IMG/VR virus record: IMGVR_UViG_3300044846_005309
Location: 1 to 64,000 of that record
Direction: 5' to 3' (one strand)
DNA from: a virus
Length of the DNA stretch: 64,000 nucleotides
Every line of letters starts with the position of its first letter. Within the stretch, counting starts at the first letter, position 1. Below, one piece after another: positions 1-61,197 of this stretch. The notes beneath the pieces are model-generated. The model saw only the letters and a list, made by a program, of their open reading frames with translations, was not told the origin of the DNA and made no database searches. A program made the position numbers and the translations under genes.

Positions 1-3000
1 TTGATTGCCTTGATTGCCTTGTGCGCCTTGATAGCCTGAATAACCAGATCTACCAGAATAACCACTAATACCAGAATACCCACTTATACCGCTATAACCG
101 GATATACCAGAATAACCACTAATGCCTGAATAGCCTGAATAGCCAGATACACCTTGTACGCCTGCAGCGCCTTGGTTGCCTTGGTTGCCTTGCGCACCAG
201 CTGCTCCTTGGTTGCCTTGCGCACCAGCTGCTCCTTGGTTGCCTTGATTGCCCTGCGCGCCCGCACCTCCTTGGTTACCTTGATTGCCTTGAGCTCCTTG
301 ATAGCCGGAATATCCAGATACACCTTGAACACCAGTAGCGCCTTGGTTGCCTTGGTTGCCTTGGGCGCCAGCGGCGCCTTGGTTACCTTGATTGCCTTGA
401 TTACCTTGAGCGCCTGCTGCTCCCTGATTACCTTGGTTGCCTTGAGCGCCTTGATAGCCGGAATAACCGGATCTACCAGAGTACCCACTTATACCGCTAT
501 AACCGCTTATACCACTATATCCTGAAATACCAGAGTAGCCACTAATACCCGAATAACCTGAATAACCGGACACGCCTTGTACGCCTGTTGCGCCTTGATT
601 ACCTTGGTTGCCTTGGTTGCCTTGTACTCCTTGATAGCCTGAATATCCAGATACGCCTTGTACACCGGTAGCACCTTGGTTGCCTTGGTTACCTTGAGCT
701 CCTTGATAACCGGAATAACCGGACACCCCTTGTACACCAGTAGCACCTTGGTTGCCTTGATTACCTTGGTTGCCTTGATTGCCTTGAGCGCCAGCTGCTC
801 CTTGATTACCTTGATACCCTGAATAACCTGAAATGCCTGAATATCCTGAGTAACCTGAAGCAGCTGCTCCGCCAGCTTGACCAGAATATCCTGAAATGCC
901 TGAATATCCTGAATATCCTGAGGCAGCGGCACCTCCGGCTTGACCAGAATACCCTGAATAACCGGATGTACCTTGTACGCCCTGCACCCCGGTTATTCCT
1001 TGATAGCCAGAATAACCTGATACACCTTGCACACCGGTAGCACCTTGATTGCCTTGATTGCCTTGATTGCCTATTGCTCCTTGATTACCTTGATTGCCTT
1101 GATTACCTTGATTACCTTGGTTACCTTGAGCTCCTTGATAACCGGAATAACCAGATCTACCAGAATATCCGCTTATACCACTATATCCTGAAATACCAGA
1201 GTAACCACTAATACCCGAATAACCTGAATAGCCAGATACACCTTGTGCTCCAGCGGCGCCTTGGTTGCCTTGGTTGCCTTGGTTGCCTTGAGCGCCTGCT
1301 GCTCCTTGGTTGCCCTGGTTACCCTGATTGCCTTGGTTACCTTGAGCGCCTGTACCAGTTGCCCCTTGAATGCCTTGATAACCTGAATAACCCGAATAGC
1401 CAGATACGCCTTGTACTCCGGTAGCGCCTTGGTTGCCTTGGTTGCCTTGGTTGCCTTGAGCGCCTGCTGCTCCTTGGTTGCCCTGGTTACCCTGATTGCC
1501 TTGGGCGCCTTGGTAGCCTGAATAGCCGGACACTCCTTGCGCGCCTGCTGCTCCTTGGTTGCCTTGATTGCCTTGCGCGCCCGCCGCGCCTTGATTGCCT
1601 TGATTGCCTTGTGCTCCTTGATAGCCTGAATAGCCGGATACGCCTTGCGCGCCTGCTGCGCCTTGATTACCTTGATTACCTTGATTACCTTGAGCGCCTG
1701 CTGCTCCTTGATTACCTTGATTACCTTGGTTGCCTTGATAGCCGGAATAACCGGATCTACCAGAGTACCCACTTATACCGCTATATCCTGAAATACCGGA
1801 GTAACCGCTAATACCGGAGTAACCACTATACCCACTAATACCTGAATAACCAGAATACCCAGATACGCCTTGTACACCGGTAGCCCCTTGAATGCCTTGA
1901 TAGCCGGAATACCCAGATACACCTTGTACCCCAGTAGCACCTTGGTTGCCTTGATTACCCTGGTTGCCTTGGGCCCCAGCGGCGCCTTGATTGCCTTGAT
2001 TACCCTGATTGCCTTGATTGCCTTGGGCTCCTTGATATCCTGAATAACCGGATACCCCTTGTACCCCAGTAGCGCCTTGATTGCCTTGGTTGCCTTGGGC
2101 ACCGGCTGCGCCTTGGTTGCCTTGGTTGCCTTGGTTACCTTGGGCCCCGGCGGCGCCTTGATTACCTTGGTTGCCTTGATTACCCTGAGCGCCTTGATAA
2201 CCAGAATAGCCAGATACACCCTGTACCCCAGTAGCACCTTGGTTGCCTTGGTTACCCTGTGCCCCAGCAGCGCCTTGGTTACCTTGATTACCTTGATTGC
2301 CTTGCTCACCTTGATAGCCAGAATAACCTGATCTACCGGAATAACCACTAATGCCACTATAACCGGAATAACCACTTACACCAGAATAACCAGAATAGCC
2401 GCTTATACCGGAATACCCTGAATAACCGGACGCACCTTGTGCCCCGGCCGCTCCTTGGTTGCCTTGGGCGCCGGCTGCGCCTTGGTTGCCTTGGTTGCCT
2501 TGTGCCCCTGCAGCGCCTTGGTTGCCTTGGTTGCCTTGGGCTCCTTGATAGCCTGAATAGCCAGATACACCTTGTACCCCGGTTGCACCTTGATTGCCTT
2601 GATTGCCTTGATTGCCTTGATTGCCTTGATTGCCTTGTGCACCGGCTGCGCCTTGATTGCCTTGGTTGCCTTGGGCACCGGCTGCGCCTTGGTTGCCTTG
2701 GTTACCTTGGTTGCCTGAATAACCTGAATAACCAGATACACCTTGAGCGCCAGCTGCTCCTTGATTGCCTTGGGCGCCAGTTGCTCCTTGATTGCCTTGA
2801 TTACCTTGCGCGCCTGCAGCGCCTTGGTTGCCTTGGTTGCCTTGGGCACCAGCTGCTCCTTGGTTGCCTTGGTTACCTTGATTGCCTTGGGCACCTTGGT
2901 TACCTGAATAACCTGAATAACCAGACACACCTTGTGCCCCGGCCGCTCCTTGGTTGCCTTGGGCGCCAGTTGCTCCTTGATTGCCTTGATTACCTTGCGC

Positions 3001-3420
3001 GCCTGCAGCGCCTTGATTGCCTTGATTACCTTGCGCGCCTGCAGCGCCTTGGTTACCTTGATTACCTTGCGCGCCTGCAGCGCCTTGGTTACCTTGAGCG
3101 CCTTGGTTGCCTGAATAACCTGAATAACCAGATACACCTTGAGCGCCAGCTACTCCTTGGTTACCTTGAGCGCCTTGATTGCCTGAATAGCCTGAATAAC
3201 CGCTTATACCACCTTCTCCGGCATAACCAGAATAACCGGAATAACCGCTTTCTCCAGAATAGCCGGAATACCCACTAGTGCCTCCTTCACCGGCATAACC
3301 ACTGTAACCAGAATAGCCAGACTCTCCGCTGTATCCGCTATACCCACTAGTGCCTCCTTCACCGGCATAACCAGAATAACCGGAATAACCAGAAATACCT
3401 GAGTAACCAGACGCGCCGGT
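1..3420 (-). repeat. Collagen-like Gly-X-Y coding repeats
   Basis: Nine-base-multiple coding repeats read on the minus strand as Gly-X-Y triplets. Two flavours alternate. One is Gly-Tyr-Ser (sometimes Gly-Ile-Ser or Gly-Arg-Ser) in runs of about 4-12 triplets. The other is rich in Gly-Asn-Gln, Gly-Ala-Gln and Gly-Ala-Ala. Proline is almost absent, unlike animal collagen. Gly, Asn and Gln codons are mixed, so the repeat appears to be kept at protein level rather than being a fresh simple repeat. The strict periodicity keeps several other frames on both strands open, and these are not genes. Confidence 0.9.
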
Positions 3421-3990
3421 TTGACCTGTTACGCAAATTACTACACCACTTTGAGTTTTATAATTAGGATTTTGAGAATCTGTAATTGTTGCGCTTAGTC
3501 CGCCAGTTACTGAATCATAAGAATTAACCAACATGACCTGCCCGATATCATCAGCTGGAGCATATACGGATAATACTTGACCAGCAGACCATGCCATTCC
3601 TGCATACGAAAGACCGTTGTAGGATTGACCTACATTTTGAAAATAATAATCACCTGCTAAGAACGGAGTGCAAAGTAAAGGTGTATAACCACTAATACCT
3701 GAATAACCACTATAGCCAGACTCTCCGCTGTATCCGCTATACCCACTAGTGCCTCCTTCTCCGGCATAACCAGAATAACCAGAATAGCCAGAATAACCAC
3801 TCTCTCCAGAATAGCCGCTTGTACCGCTTTCTCCAGAATAGCCAGAATAACCGGAATATCCGCTTATACCACCTTCTCCGGCATAACCAGAATAACCGGA
3901 ATAACCGCTTTCTCCAGAATAGCCAGAATAACCGGAATATCCGCTTATACCACCTTCTCCGGCATAACCAGAATAGCCGCTTGTACCACT
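1..3990 (-). pseudogene. Downstream part of interrupted collagen-like fibre gene (runs off left edge)
   Basis: This is an open frame with no stop codon from the TAA at 3993-3991 to the window edge, in the same phase as the fibre N-terminus at 3991-4668. From its 5' side it encodes Gly-Tyr-Ser repeats with Ala-Gly-Glu-Gly-Gly spacers, then a globular segment (about 3700-3420, containing GDYYFQNVGQSYNGLSYAGM and APADDIGQVM), then more than 1,100 residues of Gly-X-Y repeats that alternate GYS blocks with Asn/Gln/Ala blocks such as GNQGAQGAAG. The first ATG after the stop is at 3597, inside the globular segment, so independent translation looks unlikely. It is either the tail of a fibre broken by one stop, or is read through. 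The stop coincides with a tiny inversion and may be recent or an assembly error. Confidence 0.75.
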
Positions 3991-4063
3991 TTAAGCGGAT
4001 ATTCCGGTTATTCCGCTTGTACCACTTTCTCCAGAATAGCCAGAATAACCGGAATATCCGCTT
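3977..4063. repeat. 36-bp duplication with a 20-bp inverted segment that creates a stop
   Basis: Two 16-bp direct copies of CCGCTTGTACCACTTT lie at 3977-3992 and 4013-4028. The 20 bases between them (3993-4012) are the exact reverse complement of 4044-4063. The unit is 36 bp, so the reading frame is kept, but the join creates a TAA on the minus strand at 3993-3991. The inverted stretch codes Gly-Ile-Thr-Gly-Ile-Ser where Gly-Tyr-Ser repeats are expected, which is what reversing GYSGYS codons gives. Confidence 0.85.
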
Positions 4064-4668
4064 ATACCACCTTCTCCGGCATAACCAGAATAACCGGAAT
4101 AACCGCTTTCTCCAGAATAGCCAGAATAACCACTTGCGCCGCCTTCTCCGGCATAACCAGAATAACCGGAATAACCGCTTTCTCCAGAATAGCCAGAATA
4201 ACCACTTGCGCCGCCTTCTCCGGCATAACCAGAATAACCGGAATAACCGCTTTCTCCAGAATAGCCGGAATAACCGCTTTCACCGGAATAGCCAGAATAA
4301 CCACTCGAACCACCTTCTCCCGTATACCCACTGTAGCCAGAATAGCCAGAAACTGAAACTATTGTTCCATTATTTAAAAAATTTCCAGTAATATTAAGGT
4401 CGCCTTGTATATCAAGTTTATACTCCGGTGTTTTACCTATACCGACATTATCTCCTGAAAGTATAATACTATTATTAGTTGTAAAACCTCTATTTCCGTA
4501 TATATCTGAAGTAGGGATGTATTTATACCCAGAACTCCCGCTAGGAACTCCTAAATTAGGCTCTGCGTTAGGTAAGCCTAAAAATTGATAACGCTCAGGG
4601 TCCGCACTTAACGGCGGCACTACCGGTGTTCTATCACTAATAAGCTGAGGTTTATTATAAGTAGCCAT
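3991..4668 (-). CDS. Collagen-like tail fibre protein, N-terminal portion ending at in-frame stop
   Basis: 225 residues before the stop. The first 120 or so residues are non-repetitive and include a motif typical of phage fibre proteins (NVGIGKTPEYKLDIQGDLNI, about residues 80-100). The rest is Gly-Tyr-Ser collagen-like repeat broken by Glu-Gly-Gly spacers. The start ATG overlaps the stop of the upstream gene (TAATG), which implies translational coupling. The frame continues past the stop for at least 1,330 codons of similar repeats, so the natural product is probably a fibre of more than 1,500 residues. Host binding is inferred from the fibre-like N-terminus and from neighbouring fibre genes, not shown. 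Confidence 0.7.
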   Translation of the reverse strand: MATYNKPQLISDRTPVVPPLSADPERYQFLGLPNAEPNLGVPSGSSGYKYIPTSDIYGNRGFTTNNSIILSGDNVGIGKTPEYKLDIQGDLNITGNFLNNGTIVSVSGYSGYSGYTGEGGSSGYSGYSGESGYSGYSGESGYSGYSGYAGEGGASGYSGYSGESGYSGYSGYAGEGGASGYSGYSGESGYSGYSGYAGEGGISGYSGYSGYSGESGTSGITGISA

Positions 4669-14958: not shown

Positions 14959-15877
14959 GACAGCTGAAGAAATTAATTTCTTGATCCATCACTAAAGAAC
15001 TTTTATAGAGACTTTCAGAGACTTGCAGTAATGCAAGTCTTTTTTTATCTTCAGGTAATGAACTTTTATAGACAGCATTAAATAGATCTTTAAGTAGCTT
15101 AGGATAATCATTACCAAACGTCTGCTCACTTTCAATAACAATTTTACGCAAAGACATAAGGTCTTCTCTTTCTAAAACTTTATTTAGAATTTCTTGAGCA
15201 AATTCTTCATTATTAATAGTATCTTTAATGCCTAATTTGCCGTCTATAACGTTACGTTGAACGTAATTAATAATTCTACGCAAATCAGGGTAGTTATAGC
15301 GTATTACTTCTTTAAGACGTTCAACTTGCTCTCCATCAAAAGATATTTGCTCATTTTGGAGAATAAAGACTATTCTTTTAGCATATTCTCTGATAGGGGG
15401 TGTAAAGTCGGTAAAGACCTGACAGCGAGATTGAATGGGCTGAATAATACGATGTAGATAATTACCGGTGAGAATAAAACGAGTATTACCGGCATACTCT
15501 TCCATAACATTACGCAATGCTCTTTGACCAGCGTCAGTGAAATTATCAAATTCATCCAAAAAGATAACTTTAATCTTTCCATCGATACTTTTAGTTTGCG
15601 CAAACGATAAAATAGACGTACGAACCTCGTCAATACCGTTCTTTTCGCTAGCATTAATATATAAATACTGCGCGTCTAAAATTTCATTAACAATTATTTT
15701 AGCGAGTGTGGTTTTACCTGTTCCTGCATTACCTACTAAAAGTAAGTTTGGTATTTCTCCTTTACGTTTACACTCTTCTACAAAAGAGCGCATTGTATCA
15801 GACAAGACCATATCGACCAGTTTAGTTGGTCGATATTTTTCTACCCAAATATTTTTGAGTTGTTCGTTAATAGACAT
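14933..15877 (-). CDS. gp44: Sliding clamp loader large subunit gp44
   Basis: 314 residues, as in T4 gp44 (319). AAA+ ATPase with Walker A GNAGTGKTT (residues 49-57), Walker B VIFLDEFD (104-111), a sensor segment TRFILTGNYL and the SRC arginine-finger motif (150-152). With gp62 it loads the gp45 clamp onto primer-template DNA. The partner gp62 is encoded 20 kb away at 36070-36456. Its ATG overlaps the dUTPase stop (TAATG). The gene end overlaps the convergent plus-strand gene by 26 bases. Confidence 0.92.
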   Translation of the reverse strand: MSINEQLKNIWVEKYRPTKLVDMVLSDTMRSFVEECKRKGEIPNLLLVGNAGTGKTTLAKIIVNEILDAQYLYINASEKNGIDEVRTSILSFAQTKSIDGKIKVIFLDEFDNFTDAGQRALRNVMEEYAGNTRFILTGNYLHRIIQPIQSRCQVFTDFTPPIREYAKRIVFILQNEQISFDGEQVERLKEVIRYNYPDLRRIINYVQRNVIDGKLGIKDTINNEEFAQEILNKVLEREDLMSLRKIVIESEQTFGNDYPKLLKDLFNAVYKSSLPEDKKRLALLQVSESLYKSSLVMDQEINFFSCLIALAQLL

Positions 15878-39878: not shown

Positions 39879-40703
39879 ATGTCAAAGTTTGCAAATACAT
39901 TTCTTAAATCCCTTAACGAAGAAGCTGAAAAACTTCATGGCGGACAAAAAAATATCGATGTAGCAGCTCCTAAAGGCAAAATTACAGGTGCAGATTTTGC
40001 GGCTCTTCGCAAAAAGAAAGGTCTAAAGAAAGAAGGCGGTGGCGGCGGTGGCGGTGGTGGTGGCGGCGGAGGCGGGGGTGGCGGTGGTGGTGGAGGTGGA
40101 GGTGGTGGCTCATGGGAAGAAAGTGGTCGTATGAAACGAGGATTAAAGAAAGAAGAAGCAGAAGGCAATGCATTCAGCAAAGCCGTACAAGACGCAAAAG
40201 CGGCTGGCAAAAAACCAGGAGATAAAATTAAAGTAGGGGATAAGGACGTAACTCTTCGCGAAAAAAATAAAATGGCGGATAAAAAGAAAAAAGCTATGAA
40301 GGAGAATTATGAAATGGAAGCGGCGCCAGCTCCTTCAGGTGGGGAAATGTCTGATGAAGAAGCGTATAAGCGTTCGCTAGACAAAGGCACTAACCCTAGA
40401 GACTTTGATGTAGCAGACAATCCTCAGCTTAAAGTGGACTCCTCAGGGGTTGACGCGGCGCGTAATTGGATTTCTAAATTAGAAGAAATGGCTGACTTTG
40501 TAAACGGTACTGGACCGGAAAGCCTTAACTCTCAAATCAATCAACTTGAAATTAAAAACTCAATACCGTTTCGCGGAGTTGTTCGTCGGGAAGAAAAACG
40601 TATTACTAAATTAGCAGAAAACCTCCGCGGTTTAGCAGAGGTCTTCAAATCAGTCGTAATTACTTCTGAAAAGAAAGTTAAAGACGCTTCTACCCCTCGT
40701 TAA
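39879..40703 (+). CDS. Poly-glycine protein, putative internal head protein
   Basis: 274 residues from the ATG at 39879, preferred to an ATG at 39855 because the promoter-like GATAAATA lies between them. The first 14 residues (SKFANTFLKSLNE) resemble the putative capsid-targeting segments of other genes, ending L-N-E. Then comes a run of 25 Gly (40035-40109) coded by mixed GGN codons, Lys-rich stretches, and a helical C-terminus of about 90 residues. The function is unknown; a late, packaged protein is inferred. The 3' end overlaps the convergent thyX. Confidence 0.6.
   Translation: MSKFANTFLKSLNEEAEKLHGGQKNIDVAAPKGKITGADFAALRKKKGLKKEGGGGGGGGGGGGGGGGGGGGGGGGGSWEESGRMKRGLKKEEAEGNAFSKAVQDAKAAGKKPGDKIKVGDKDVTLREKNKMADKKKKAMKENYEMEAAPAPSGGEMSDEEAYKRSLDKGTNPRDFDVADNPQLKVDSSGVDAARNWISKLEEMADFVNGTGPESLNSQINQLEIKNSIPFRGVVRREEKRITKLAENLRGLAEVFKSVVITSEKKVKDASTPR
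40035..40109 (+). repeat. Run of 25 glycine codons
   Basis: 75 bases encoding 25 consecutive Gly using GGC, GGT, GGA and one GGG. It is a sharp GC-rich island in an AT-rich genome. Mixed codons argue against recent triplet slippage. Confidence 0.9.
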
Positions 40704-51431: not shown

Positions 51432-52479
51432 AATTTATAACTCTGAAATTGGTATTTTTTCAGACCCACATTACGGAGTACATCGCAACAGTGAAACATG
51501 GCATAAGATTGCTTTAGATCACGCGAAGTGGGCTTGTGAACAATTCAAACAAAGAGGCATAAAAGATATAATAATACCCGGAGACATTTTTCATGATCGC
51601 AACGATATTGCTGTTAACACTCTTCACATTGCTACTGACATATTCGATATACTTCGCGACTTCAATATCATTATTACAGTCGGCAATCACGACGCTTATT
51701 ATCGTGATAATTCTACCGTTAACTCCGTCTCCGTACTTAGAGGCTGGTCTAACATTACTGTTATTGATACTCTTCAAGTTGTTAACCTCCAAGGAAAGAC
51801 GATAGCTTTTTGCCCGTGGGGTCAAGATATAAATGAAGTACCTAAGTGTGACTTAATTGTAGGACATTTTGAAATTAATAGTTTTAAAATGAATTCTTTT
51901 AAGGTCTGCACTAACGGTCTTAAATCCGCTGATCTTACCAGTAGAGCGCCGCTTACTATTTCAGGACATTTTCATCATAGAGAGGAAAGAAAATACAGCG
52001 AAGGTACTATTCTTTATGTAGGTTGCCCGTATCAGCAAGACTGGGGAGATTATAATACTACTAAAGGGCTTTATATTTTAGATTTAGATACTCTTTCGTA
52101 CGAGTTTATTGAAAACAATATTTCTCCGCGTTACAATAAGATTTATTACTCTGAAATCTTTAGCGGTAAACATACCGCTACAGTTATCAAACAGTTAATT
52201 GCAGGCAATATAGTAAAATTTATTATAGATAAGCAACTAGAACCAAGCTTGGTAGATGCTATTGTACGTAAGTTAGTCTCAGTAAAGCCTGTAGAGCTGA
52301 CAATAGATTATGACTATACTGAAATTAGTAAAATTAATAATGAACTTGCTAATACTAAGAATTTTAGCGTAAGTGTCGAAACTTCTATATCTGAATTTAT
52401 TGATTTTTTGGACATTAAAGATAAAGATAAAGTAAAGGCGTACGTTAATGACTTGTATTTACGCGCTAATAAAATATGA
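51421..52479 (+). CDS. gp47: Recombination endonuclease subunit gp47 (Mre11-like)
   Basis: 352 residues, near T4 gp47 (339). Metallophosphoesterase motifs: FSDPHYG, IIPGDIFHDRND, VGNHDAYYRD, and the late SGHFHHRE. With gp46 it forms the Mre11/Rad50-like complex that resects double-strand ends for recombination-dependent replication. In T4 the pair is close together; here gp46 is 6.9 kb away. The start overlaps gp55, and the stop overlaps the carbamoyltransferase start (ATGA). Confidence 0.93.
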   Translation: MTFKIYNSEIGIFSDPHYGVHRNSETWHKIALDHAKWACEQFKQRGIKDIIIPGDIFHDRNDIAVNTLHIATDIFDILRDFNIIITVGNHDAYYRDNSTVNSVSVLRGWSNITVIDTLQVVNLQGKTIAFCPWGQDINEVPKCDLIVGHFEINSFKMNSFKVCTNGLKSADLTSRAPLTISGHFHHREERKYSEGTILYVGCPYQQDWGDYNTTKGLYILDLDTLSYEFIENNISPRYNKIYYSEIFSGKHTATVIKQLIAGNIVKFIIDKQLEPSLVDAIVRKLVSVKPVELTIDYDYTEISKINNELANTKNFSVSVETSISEFIDFLDIKDKDKVKAYVNDLYLRANKI

Positions 52480-54056
52480 GAGATATGAAACAAACATTAA
52501 GTATATACGGGGCTCATGATTGTAGTGCGGTATATATAGATAAAAATGAAGATCTAAAAATATTAGAATATGAGCGTTTAGTTAAAAAGCGTTATGCTGC
52601 GTTTTCAGATAAATTAGACACAAGAGAAGGTATAGGCTCTAACTTAGAAGAACGAAAAAAATTTTTAAATTATATTAAAGAAACATGTTATCATATCACA
52701 AAAGTACTACATAATGAAATTTCAAATACTGATATAGAGTTAATTAAAGATTTTTTTCCAGATGCGACTTTTTTTAAAAAAGACCACCATTTTTCTCATG
52801 CAATCTGTGGTTATAGACTATCCGGTTTCAAAGAAGCAATAATACTATCTATTGACGGTGGCGGTATAGATAGTAATGAAACTGTTTACACTAGAGTCTA
52901 TCACGCTAAAGATAATGATATTAAAACTGTTGAGACTTATAATATTAATTTAGGGGTACCTTACAGTTTTATAGCTAGTCCAATCTCTGAAATCAAACCT
53001 GGGCCCGACGACAGGTATCATTCTCTTGTATATGCAGGTAAAGTAATGGGATTATGCGCATATGGTCAAATAAAAAATGAATGGATAGAGCCGCTTAAAA
53101 AATTCTATATAACTAATAATAGTTCAAAGCTGGGACGAGATATCAATCTTAATCTGTCTTATAATGCTCTGTCTGGGCAATCTGGTTATGATTTAGCTGC
53201 AACTTCTCAAAAAGTGTTTGAAGAATATGTGCATGCTTTGCTAACTTCTGTGCTTAATCGATTTAATCATGATATAATTTTAGTAGGTGGTTGTGCATTA
53301 AACGTACTTTCAAACCAAAAAATTTATTCATGGCTTAAAAATAATAAGCCAAATATTAAGCTTTATGTACCGCCCAACCCGAACGACTGCGGACTCGCTT
53401 TAGGTCAATTTTTAACTGATCACCCAGAAGCAGTAAAGAAAGCTAATACATATTGCGGTTGGGATATTTTAGATAAAGATAAGTTTACTAACTATATAGA
53501 AGAGCGTAAAGCAACACCAGTAACTATTACAGAGATAGTAAATTTAATTAAATCAGGTAAAATTATTGGTATTATTGATGGTTGTTCAGAGGTCGGACCG
53601 CGAGCGCTAGGCAATAGAAGTATTATTTGTGACCCTACTCTTTCTGATATGAAAGATGTGCTTAATTTAAAAGTAAAGTTTAGAGAATGGTATAGGCCTT
53701 TCGCGCCGGTATGTAGGCTTGAAGATAAAGATTTATACTTTGAAGAAGCACCAGAAGCAGTTTATATGAGCTATGCTCCGAAAGTAAAAGAAGAATACAG
53801 AAACGTACTAAAAGCAATAACCCATATAGATAACACTTCAAGACTACAAACAGTCACGGAAAAACAACACAAGTTATTTTACAATATATTAACTGAATTA
53901 AAAAACCGCAATCAAATAGCGGTAATATTAAATACTTCTTTTAATATTAGAGGAAAACCCATACTGACCACATTACAAGATGCTTTGTATGTATTAGACA
54001 ATACGCAACTTGATTATGTTACTTCAAATGGATTTTTATTTAAAAAACAATTATGA
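52476..54056 (+). CDS. Carbamoyltransferase (NodU/CmcH/TobZ family)
   Basis: 526 residues. N-terminal ASKHA-type domain with GAHDCSAVYID, KKDHHFSHAICGYRLSGF and LSIDGGGIDS, then LVGGCALNVLSNQKI. C-terminal YrdC-like part has GCSEVGPRALGNRSIICDP and KFREWYRPFAPVC. It transfers a carbamoyl group from carbamoyl phosphate through an adenylate to a hydroxyl. In bacteria such enzymes decorate Nod factors or antibiotics. Neighbouring glycosyltransferases suggest a sugar hydroxyl, although a modified DNA base is possible. Confidence 0.9.
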   Translation: MRDMKQTLSIYGAHDCSAVYIDKNEDLKILEYERLVKKRYAAFSDKLDTREGIGSNLEERKKFLNYIKETCYHITKVLHNEISNTDIELIKDFFPDATFFKKDHHFSHAICGYRLSGFKEAIILSIDGGGIDSNETVYTRVYHAKDNDIKTVETYNINLGVPYSFIASPISEIKPGPDDRYHSLVYAGKVMGLCAYGQIKNEWIEPLKKFYITNNSSKLGRDINLNLSYNALSGQSGYDLAATSQKVFEEYVHALLTSVLNRFNHDIILVGGCALNVLSNQKIYSWLKNNKPNIKLYVPPNPNDCGLALGQFLTDHPEAVKKANTYCGWDILDKDKFTNYIEERKATPVTITEIVNLIKSGKIIGIIDGCSEVGPRALGNRSIICDPTLSDMKDVLNLKVKFREWYRPFAPVCRLEDKDLYFEEAPEAVYMSYAPKVKEEYRNVLKAITHIDNTSRLQTVTEKQHKLFYNILTELKNRNQIAVILNTSFNIRGKPILTTLQDALYVLDNTQLDYVTSNGFLFKKQL

Positions 54057-59373: not shown

Positions 59374-61197
59374 ATGCGGTATATTCATTTTAAGAGGCTT
59401 AAAGCTACTAATTTTCTTTCTATTGGTAAGAAGCCTGTTGAAGTTGTATTCCGTCCCGGTCTTAATATTATTACCGGCCGTAATTTTGATAAAGCTGATC
59501 GAGCTAACGGAGTAGGCAAATCAACTATTGCAGATGCAATGCATTTTGCATTGTATGGAAGCACCATAAGAGAACTAAAGAAAGAAAACATAGTAAATGA
59601 TCAAGCCCCGGATAGTCTTTGTGAAGTAGAACTCGAGTTTGTTTGCATACAAGGAGAAACTAGTAACACTTATAAGATAGTAAGAACGCTCAATCCAACC
59701 AAATGTTATCTCTTTATGAACGATCAAGAAATAACTCGTTCAGGGGTACCGCAAACTACTGAGTATATTGTTGATATAATTAAAACTTCTTCTGAAGTTT
59801 TCCAGAATAGTGTAGTAATGACTATTAACAACACTGTACCTTTTATGGCGCAGAAAAAAGTTGAAAAGCGCAAATTCATTGAAGGCATACTCGGGCTTGA
59901 AGTGTTCGGTAATATGCTGCTTTTTGCACGTCATGACTACAATGAAACCAAACGTAATCTAGAAGTAGAAACAACTAAATTTGAAGAGATAAATCGCTCT
60001 TTACAGGATAATATAAAACAAAAAGAACTTTACGACGCAAACAAAGAAAAGAGACTTGAAACGCTTAAAGTACGTCAAACTAATAATAGTAATGAGCTTT
60101 TTCTGCTTAAAGAAAAATTAGATAAGTTTGAGCCGGTAGATAGTGAAGCTAAAGCAAAACTAGAAGAAGAGCTTAAAAATTTTACTAATGCTAAAAAAAT
60201 ATTAGCCGGAAATTTGCTAGAAACGGAAAGACTTATTACCGAGGCTAACACCCATATTAAAATTAATACCGATCGTAATAAAAAAATAAAAAAAGTAAAC
60301 AGTCTATGCCCCCATTGCGGAAAAGATTTGGCCGAAGCTGTCAATACTCAATACGAAAAAGATAAAAATGATTGTATAAGAGAAATTGAAAAGTACGAAG
60401 AAGTACTAAAAACTAATACCCCTAAACACAAGGATATTACTAGTAAAATTAGTAAATTAGAAGAAAATTTAATTAAACTGCAAAACAGGTTTAACGAGTT
60501 TGTTATACGCAAAAAAGAAATAGAAAATATAAATTCAAGAATTACCCAGTTAGACGCATGGCAACAGCAACTATCTATAGATATAGACAATCTTAATAAG
60601 GATTCAAATAATTTTGAAAAGATTATTCTAGATATAACGTCCCGCATAAACGAAACCAAAACTGGTATAACCGCTTTGCAGACACGTATTGAAATAATTG
60701 AAAACGCTAAACTAATAGTTTCAGAAGAAGGAGTAAAATCCTATATAGTTAAGAAGATTATTGAAGTATTAAACACTAGATTAGGGTTCTACTTGAAAAA
60801 ACTTGAAAGTAACAGTATTGTGCGTTTTAATGAGTTTTTTGAAGAAATTATTACTAACGAGCGAGGCAAAGAATGTAGCTATTTTAATTTTTCAGGAGCT
60901 GAGCGTAAGGCTATAGATCTAGCCATGCTTTTTACTTTTCAGGATATAAGAAGAGCACAGGCTCAAGTATGTCTTAATTTATCTATGTTTGACGAGCTTT
61001 TTGACTCGTCTTTGGATGAAAAAGGTATTGAGTTAGTACTTGATATTCTTAAAGAAAGAGTAGATAACTATAATGAAGCTATTTATATTATTTCTCACCG
61101 TAAAGAAAGTAAAAAGTACTGTATAGGCGGAGAAATAATCTTCTTAGTAAAGAAAAACGGCATTACCACACGAACAACTAACTATGACTTATCCTAA
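59374..61197 (+). CDS. gp46: Recombination endonuclease subunit gp46 (Rad50-like)
   Basis: 607 residues; T4 gp46 is 560. N-terminal LKATNFLSIG and Walker A NGVGKSTIADAM, two long coiled coils separated by a zinc hook CPHC (in SLCPHCGKDL), and a C-terminal lobe with NFSGAERKAIDLAML (signature), LSMFDELFDSSLD (Walker B) and IISHRKE. It forms the Mre11/Rad50 complex with gp47. Its partner gene is separated by the sugar cassette. The end overlaps the next gene by 14 bases. Confidence 0.94.
   Translation: MRYIHFKRLKATNFLSIGKKPVEVVFRPGLNIITGRNFDKADRANGVGKSTIADAMHFALYGSTIRELKKENIVNDQAPDSLCEVELEFVCIQGETSNTYKIVRTLNPTKCYLFMNDQEITRSGVPQTTEYIVDIIKTSSEVFQNSVVMTINNTVPFMAQKKVEKRKFIEGILGLEVFGNMLLFARHDYNETKRNLEVETTKFEEINRSLQDNIKQKELYDANKEKRLETLKVRQTNNSNELFLLKEKLDKFEPVDSEAKAKLEEELKNFTNAKKILAGNLLETERLITEANTHIKINTDRNKKIKKVNSLCPHCGKDLAEAVNTQYEKDKNDCIREIEKYEEVLKTNTPKHKDITSKISKLEENLIKLQNRFNEFVIRKKEIENINSRITQLDAWQQQLSIDIDNLNKDSNNFEKIILDITSRINETKTGITALQTRIEIIENAKLIVSEEGVKSYIVKKIIEVLNTRLGFYLKKLESNSIVRFNEFFEEIITNERGKECSYFNFSGAERKAIDLAMLFTFQDIRRAQAQVCLNLSMFDELFDSSLDEKGIELVLDILKERVDNYNEAIYIISHRKESKKYCIGGEIIFLVKKNGITTRTTNYDLS

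Follow-up and report, generated by a model that had tools for sequence, protein, structure and literature searches.

Short-range template switches have been described as four-point events, in which a reverse-complement copy is left near its source by closely spaced switch points (Loytynoja and Goldman, PLoS Genet 2021, PMC7954356). In the class termed '4 before 1' the return point lies before the point of departure, which results in a direct duplication, and in great apes such events look like one large insertion (PMC7954356). Template switches that make perfect hairpins have also been described (PMC8794818). The locus reported here shares with the '4 before 1' class the nearby reverse-complement copy, the close switch points, the direct duplication and the appearance of one large insertion, but it lies in a tandem-repeat gene of a phage, its template is ambiguous among three identical copies, and the result is a nonsense allele. 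Quasipalindrome-associated template switches of E. coli resemble it in their bacterial setting and in the perfect inverted repeat that is left behind; those mutations, however, arise where an imperfect inverted repeat already exists (PMC7202029), while here all inverted repeats of at least 14 bases found nearby involve the insertion itself. The affected gene resembles the collagen-like phage tail fibres (PHROG families 6320, 5073 and 1806) in its Gly-X-Y repeats, its match to tail-fibre families and its neighbourhood of tail genes, but differs from them in that it is interrupted at codon 226, while the fibre frames of the relatives are open.

The stretch of DNA analysed, referred to as the window, comprised bases 1 to 64,000 of the 119,783-base virus record IMGVR_UViG_3300044846_005309. 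On the minus strand a frame runs from an ATG at 4668 to the contig edge at base 1. It was counted at 1,556 codons with one stop, the TAA at 3993-3991, in agreement with the original prediction of a lone stop in a frame of at least 1,555 codons. The product of this giant gene (1-4668, minus strand) looks like a collagen-like tail fibre, with an N-terminal head of about 108 amino acids, followed by a long tract of Gly-X-Y repeats (GYS, later NQG/AQG). It matched tail fibre and collagen-like families of PHROG, and the gene is placed behind tail and baseplate genes. Its N-terminus is 51-55% identical to those of the fibres in the syntenic position of three other contigs (L012, L013 and L060). The record breaks within the collagen repeat at base 1, so the gene is cut by the contig end and the length of the frame is a minimum. 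The shaft contains one internal non-repeat domain at about 3420-3690 (minus strand), which is nearly identical in the closest relative found, L074 (IMGVR_UViG_3300046010_012123), and 47-79% identical in other contigs. As the latter carry it within different collagen arrays, these similarities suggest that the domain has been exchanged between fibres. A tblastn search with the domain against named phages gave no match.

The TAA (3991-3993, minus strand, codon 226) adjoins the edge of a reverse-complement segment at 3992-4013, the core of an insertion. The predicted exact reverse complementarity between 3993-4012 and 4044-4063 proved correct, and the exact inverted match was found to be longer, 22 instead of 20 bases, with three partners instead of one. 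The identical 22-mers, all within the minus-strand frame, are located at 4043-4064, 3926-3947 and 3845-3866. The first of these is the nearest candidate template, 29 bases away, and forms a perfect 22-bp hairpin with 3992-4013 (fold z about -6.6, as RNA or DNA); the other two are alternative templates. The two 16-base direct repeats said to flank the segment at a distance of 36 bases were also present, with the sequence CCGCTTGTACCACTTT at 3977-3992 and 4013-4028 (minus strand). The copy at 4013-4028 is synthesised first in the coding direction, and that at 3977-3992 would stem from the return switch. The 36 bases that can be deleted have 17 equivalent offsets, one of which places the insertion at 3977-4012 (minus strand). 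They amount to 12 codons, and the downstream frame is kept, as had been stated. The reverse copy of the GYS codons still encodes Gly-X-Y (GIT GIS), and the return junction gives GCT TAA.

A comparison with related phage genomes, which the original prediction had proposed as a check, showed the empty site in L074. When the window flanks were joined in silico, 72 of 80 bases matched L074 5728-5807 without a gap. Over 633 bp, L074 and the window were 90.8% identical; this shared block opens at window base 3992, where the reverse-complement segment has just been passed in the coding direction, and extends through the internal domain. The fibre frame of L074 is open over 2,085 codons, and the syntenic fibres are likewise uninterrupted (2,384 codons in L012, 2,270 in L013 and 1,135 in L060). 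As L074 has the empty site and the fibres of all four relatives are open, the 36 bases appear to be an insertion in the lineage of the window. L074 is a relative and another strain, with an upstream collagen array that differs from that of the window, and the putative orthology of the two sites is based on the flanks next to them and on the block downstream. A search with the DNA pattern of the empty site matched only this known relative.

All four-point solutions were enumerated from the empty site. One four-point event rebuilds the window allele with zero mismatches, the allele being the empty site up to point 1, followed by a reverse copy of 20-22 nt and by the empty site from point 4. Point 4 lies 14-16 nt before point 1, and eight solutions are equivalent. 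The locus thus consists of an exact left part, an exact reverse complement and an exact right part, with the state before the event preserved in L074. Quite likely, a single short-range template switch within the Gly-Tyr-Ser repeat of the phage gave rise to a recent null or truncated fibre allele. Synthesis in the coding direction would reach ...AAAGTGGTACAAGCGG and then jump to a reverse template, from which 20-22 bases of the repeat unit would be copied in reverse, the nearest source being 4064-4043. This source would already have been made before the departure point, so that folding back on the nascent strand would be possible; if one of the other copies was the source, or if synthesis ran the opposite way, the polymerase might have to change strands. 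The polymerase would then rejoin the original template 14-16 bases behind the departure point, and the product would be a 36-base insertion composed of the reverse-complement copy and a 16-base duplication. The 22-bp hairpin would be a by-product expected of this class of template switches. Template switching at a repeat had been proposed in the original prediction and is strongly supported by the empty site in L074 and the exact one-event rebuild. The term microinversion, used in the same place, did not hold: strictly, the event would be a reverse-copy insertion and not an inversion in place, because the source copies have been retained.

In 1,000 codon-preserving shuffles of the fibre gene the longest inverted repeat had a mean length of 11.1 bases and never exceeded 16. 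The whole 64-kb window contained three 22-base and four 14-base pairs when inverted repeats of at least 14 bases within 300 bp were considered; all seven involve segment 3992-4013, and none independent of the insertion was found. A survey of 185 non-redundant collagen-like phage tracts (148 kb, 69 loci), which included the window's own tract, asked whether reverse copies diversify such fibres. No other inverted repeat of at least 14 nt was found in these tracts, and codon shuffles predict virtually none of 22 nt. Fibres of this kind thus do not commonly diversify through reverse copying, or the resulting copies are removed.

With the TAA in place the fibre would end at residue 225, before most of the shaft, and the truncated product would consist of the head plus a portion of collagen-like shaft of about 120 residues. 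Decay has not yet set in over the remaining frame: the 1,330 codons downstream of the TAA contain no stop. Since 5.2% of single substitutions in this part would be nonsense, three stops are expected at 1.5% divergence, and none is present. Together with the perfect 22-bp arms, this suggests that the insertion allele, if real, is probably young. Of the four explanations offered in the original prediction, a recent null allele fits best. The only start codon between 3990 and 3597, and hence the first possible in-frame restart, is the ATG at 3597 (frame 1-3597, minus strand). It lies inside the internal domain, the matching ATG is internal in L074, and an AGGA directly abuts it, which leaves no plausible ribosome site; it is therefore probably not used.

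An assembly error, one of the other three explanations, is unlikely but has to be weighed. A chimeric read, arising from template switching during library preparation or amplification, could have been taken into a contig of low coverage, and the real phage would then have an intact fibre. The public virus record, classed as viral by IMG/VR, ends in the fibre repeat gene, so the assembly was strained there; the stop is present in the window record only, the relatives being intact; and the junction was found in no other record when viral and genome contig collections were searched with exact DNA patterns, a type of search that near-identical records may escape. The same applies to the DNA pattern of the window's N-terminus, which was likewise found in no other record. 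Repeats at the junctions, however, are short. The longest stretch of the junction region repeated elsewhere measured 16-22 bases, compared with 72-107 bases in the flanks, in a comparison that covered 84 kb (the 64-kb window and 20 kb of the record). For this reason assembly at k above 22 would require at least one real read over each junction, which favours the view that the reads at the junctions are real. Moreover, the allele requires two switches and an exact in-frame return to the flank, unlike a one-way chimera. The event probably took place in the phage and not during sequencing or assembly.

A template switch in the phage could also be read in ways that give the allele a function. If slippage between the exact 16-base repeats removed the 36 bases, the frame would be restored exactly, so the event that breaks the gene would itself lay down the repeats that enable its repair. 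There is a slim chance that the template switch produced a spontaneously revertible fibre-off allele of this kind; if so, fibre-off variants could be transient in the population. That the insertion and its repeats act as a phase-variable switch, with the 36 bases lost and regained, is very improbable. To regain them a new rare template switch would be needed, which would make cycling one-way; 148 kb of related tracts contain no similar element, and the relatives have no conserved switch. Nor was a second allele of the window virus present in the searched contig collections, and the phase-type switch that had been suggested found no positive support. Least credible of all is a bypass of the TAA in translation, by recoding, read-through, frameshifting or, as in T4 gene 60, hopping between the direct repeats, although the in-frame gap, the identical codons at both ends and the 22-bp mRNA hairpin would suit it. 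TAA is the commonest terminator in the window and ends 34 of the 47 frames of at least 200 codons, which also disfavours the recoded stop of the original prediction. In T4 gene 60 the stop directly follows the take-off codon. No such arrangement, with a landing codon that matches the take-off codon, was found here; the codon before the TAA is GCT, while the landing repeat, AGT GGT ACA AGC, has no GCN codon. The stop is located at the hairpin's 3' base and is thus not followed by the hairpin; L074 simply lacks the element. Recoding, frameshifting and bypass were rejected on these grounds, and no evidence was found for a programmed switch either.

What is seen here is thus most likely one unremarkable, though elegant, mutation of a kind already known, and an artefact is the less likely reading. 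Read as a template switch, it provides an unusually clean footprint of such an insertion in a phage genome, and the empty site is known from a relative. The tract survey suggests that surviving fibre genes very rarely carry footprints of this kind. The case also serves as a warning for giant repeat genes of metagenomic viruses, in which a stop can be the outcome of one local event and need not mark where a gene ends or a codon is recoded.

Profile matches in the window included a major head protein (phrog_138), a portal protein (phrog_213) and a baseplate wedge protein (phrog_219), and in tblastn the tail protein neighbouring the fibre matched Synechococcus and Prochlorococcus phages at less than 60% identity. 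On the basis of these two sets of matches, the gene content points to a tailed phage that is distantly related to the T4-like cyanophages. The window also encodes an SbcC-like subunit of a palindrome nuclease (phrog_77; 59374-61197, plus strand). An SbcC-like nuclease could act on hairpins such as that of the insertion. A Nol-like carbamoyltransferase (phrog_1601) is encoded at 52476-54056 (plus strand). Predicted proteins with runs of about 24-28 glycines were noted at 40026-40142 (plus strand) of the window and at 15202-15318 (minus strand) of contig L009. Both glycine runs are coded by mixed GGN codons and are not homopolymer DNA.
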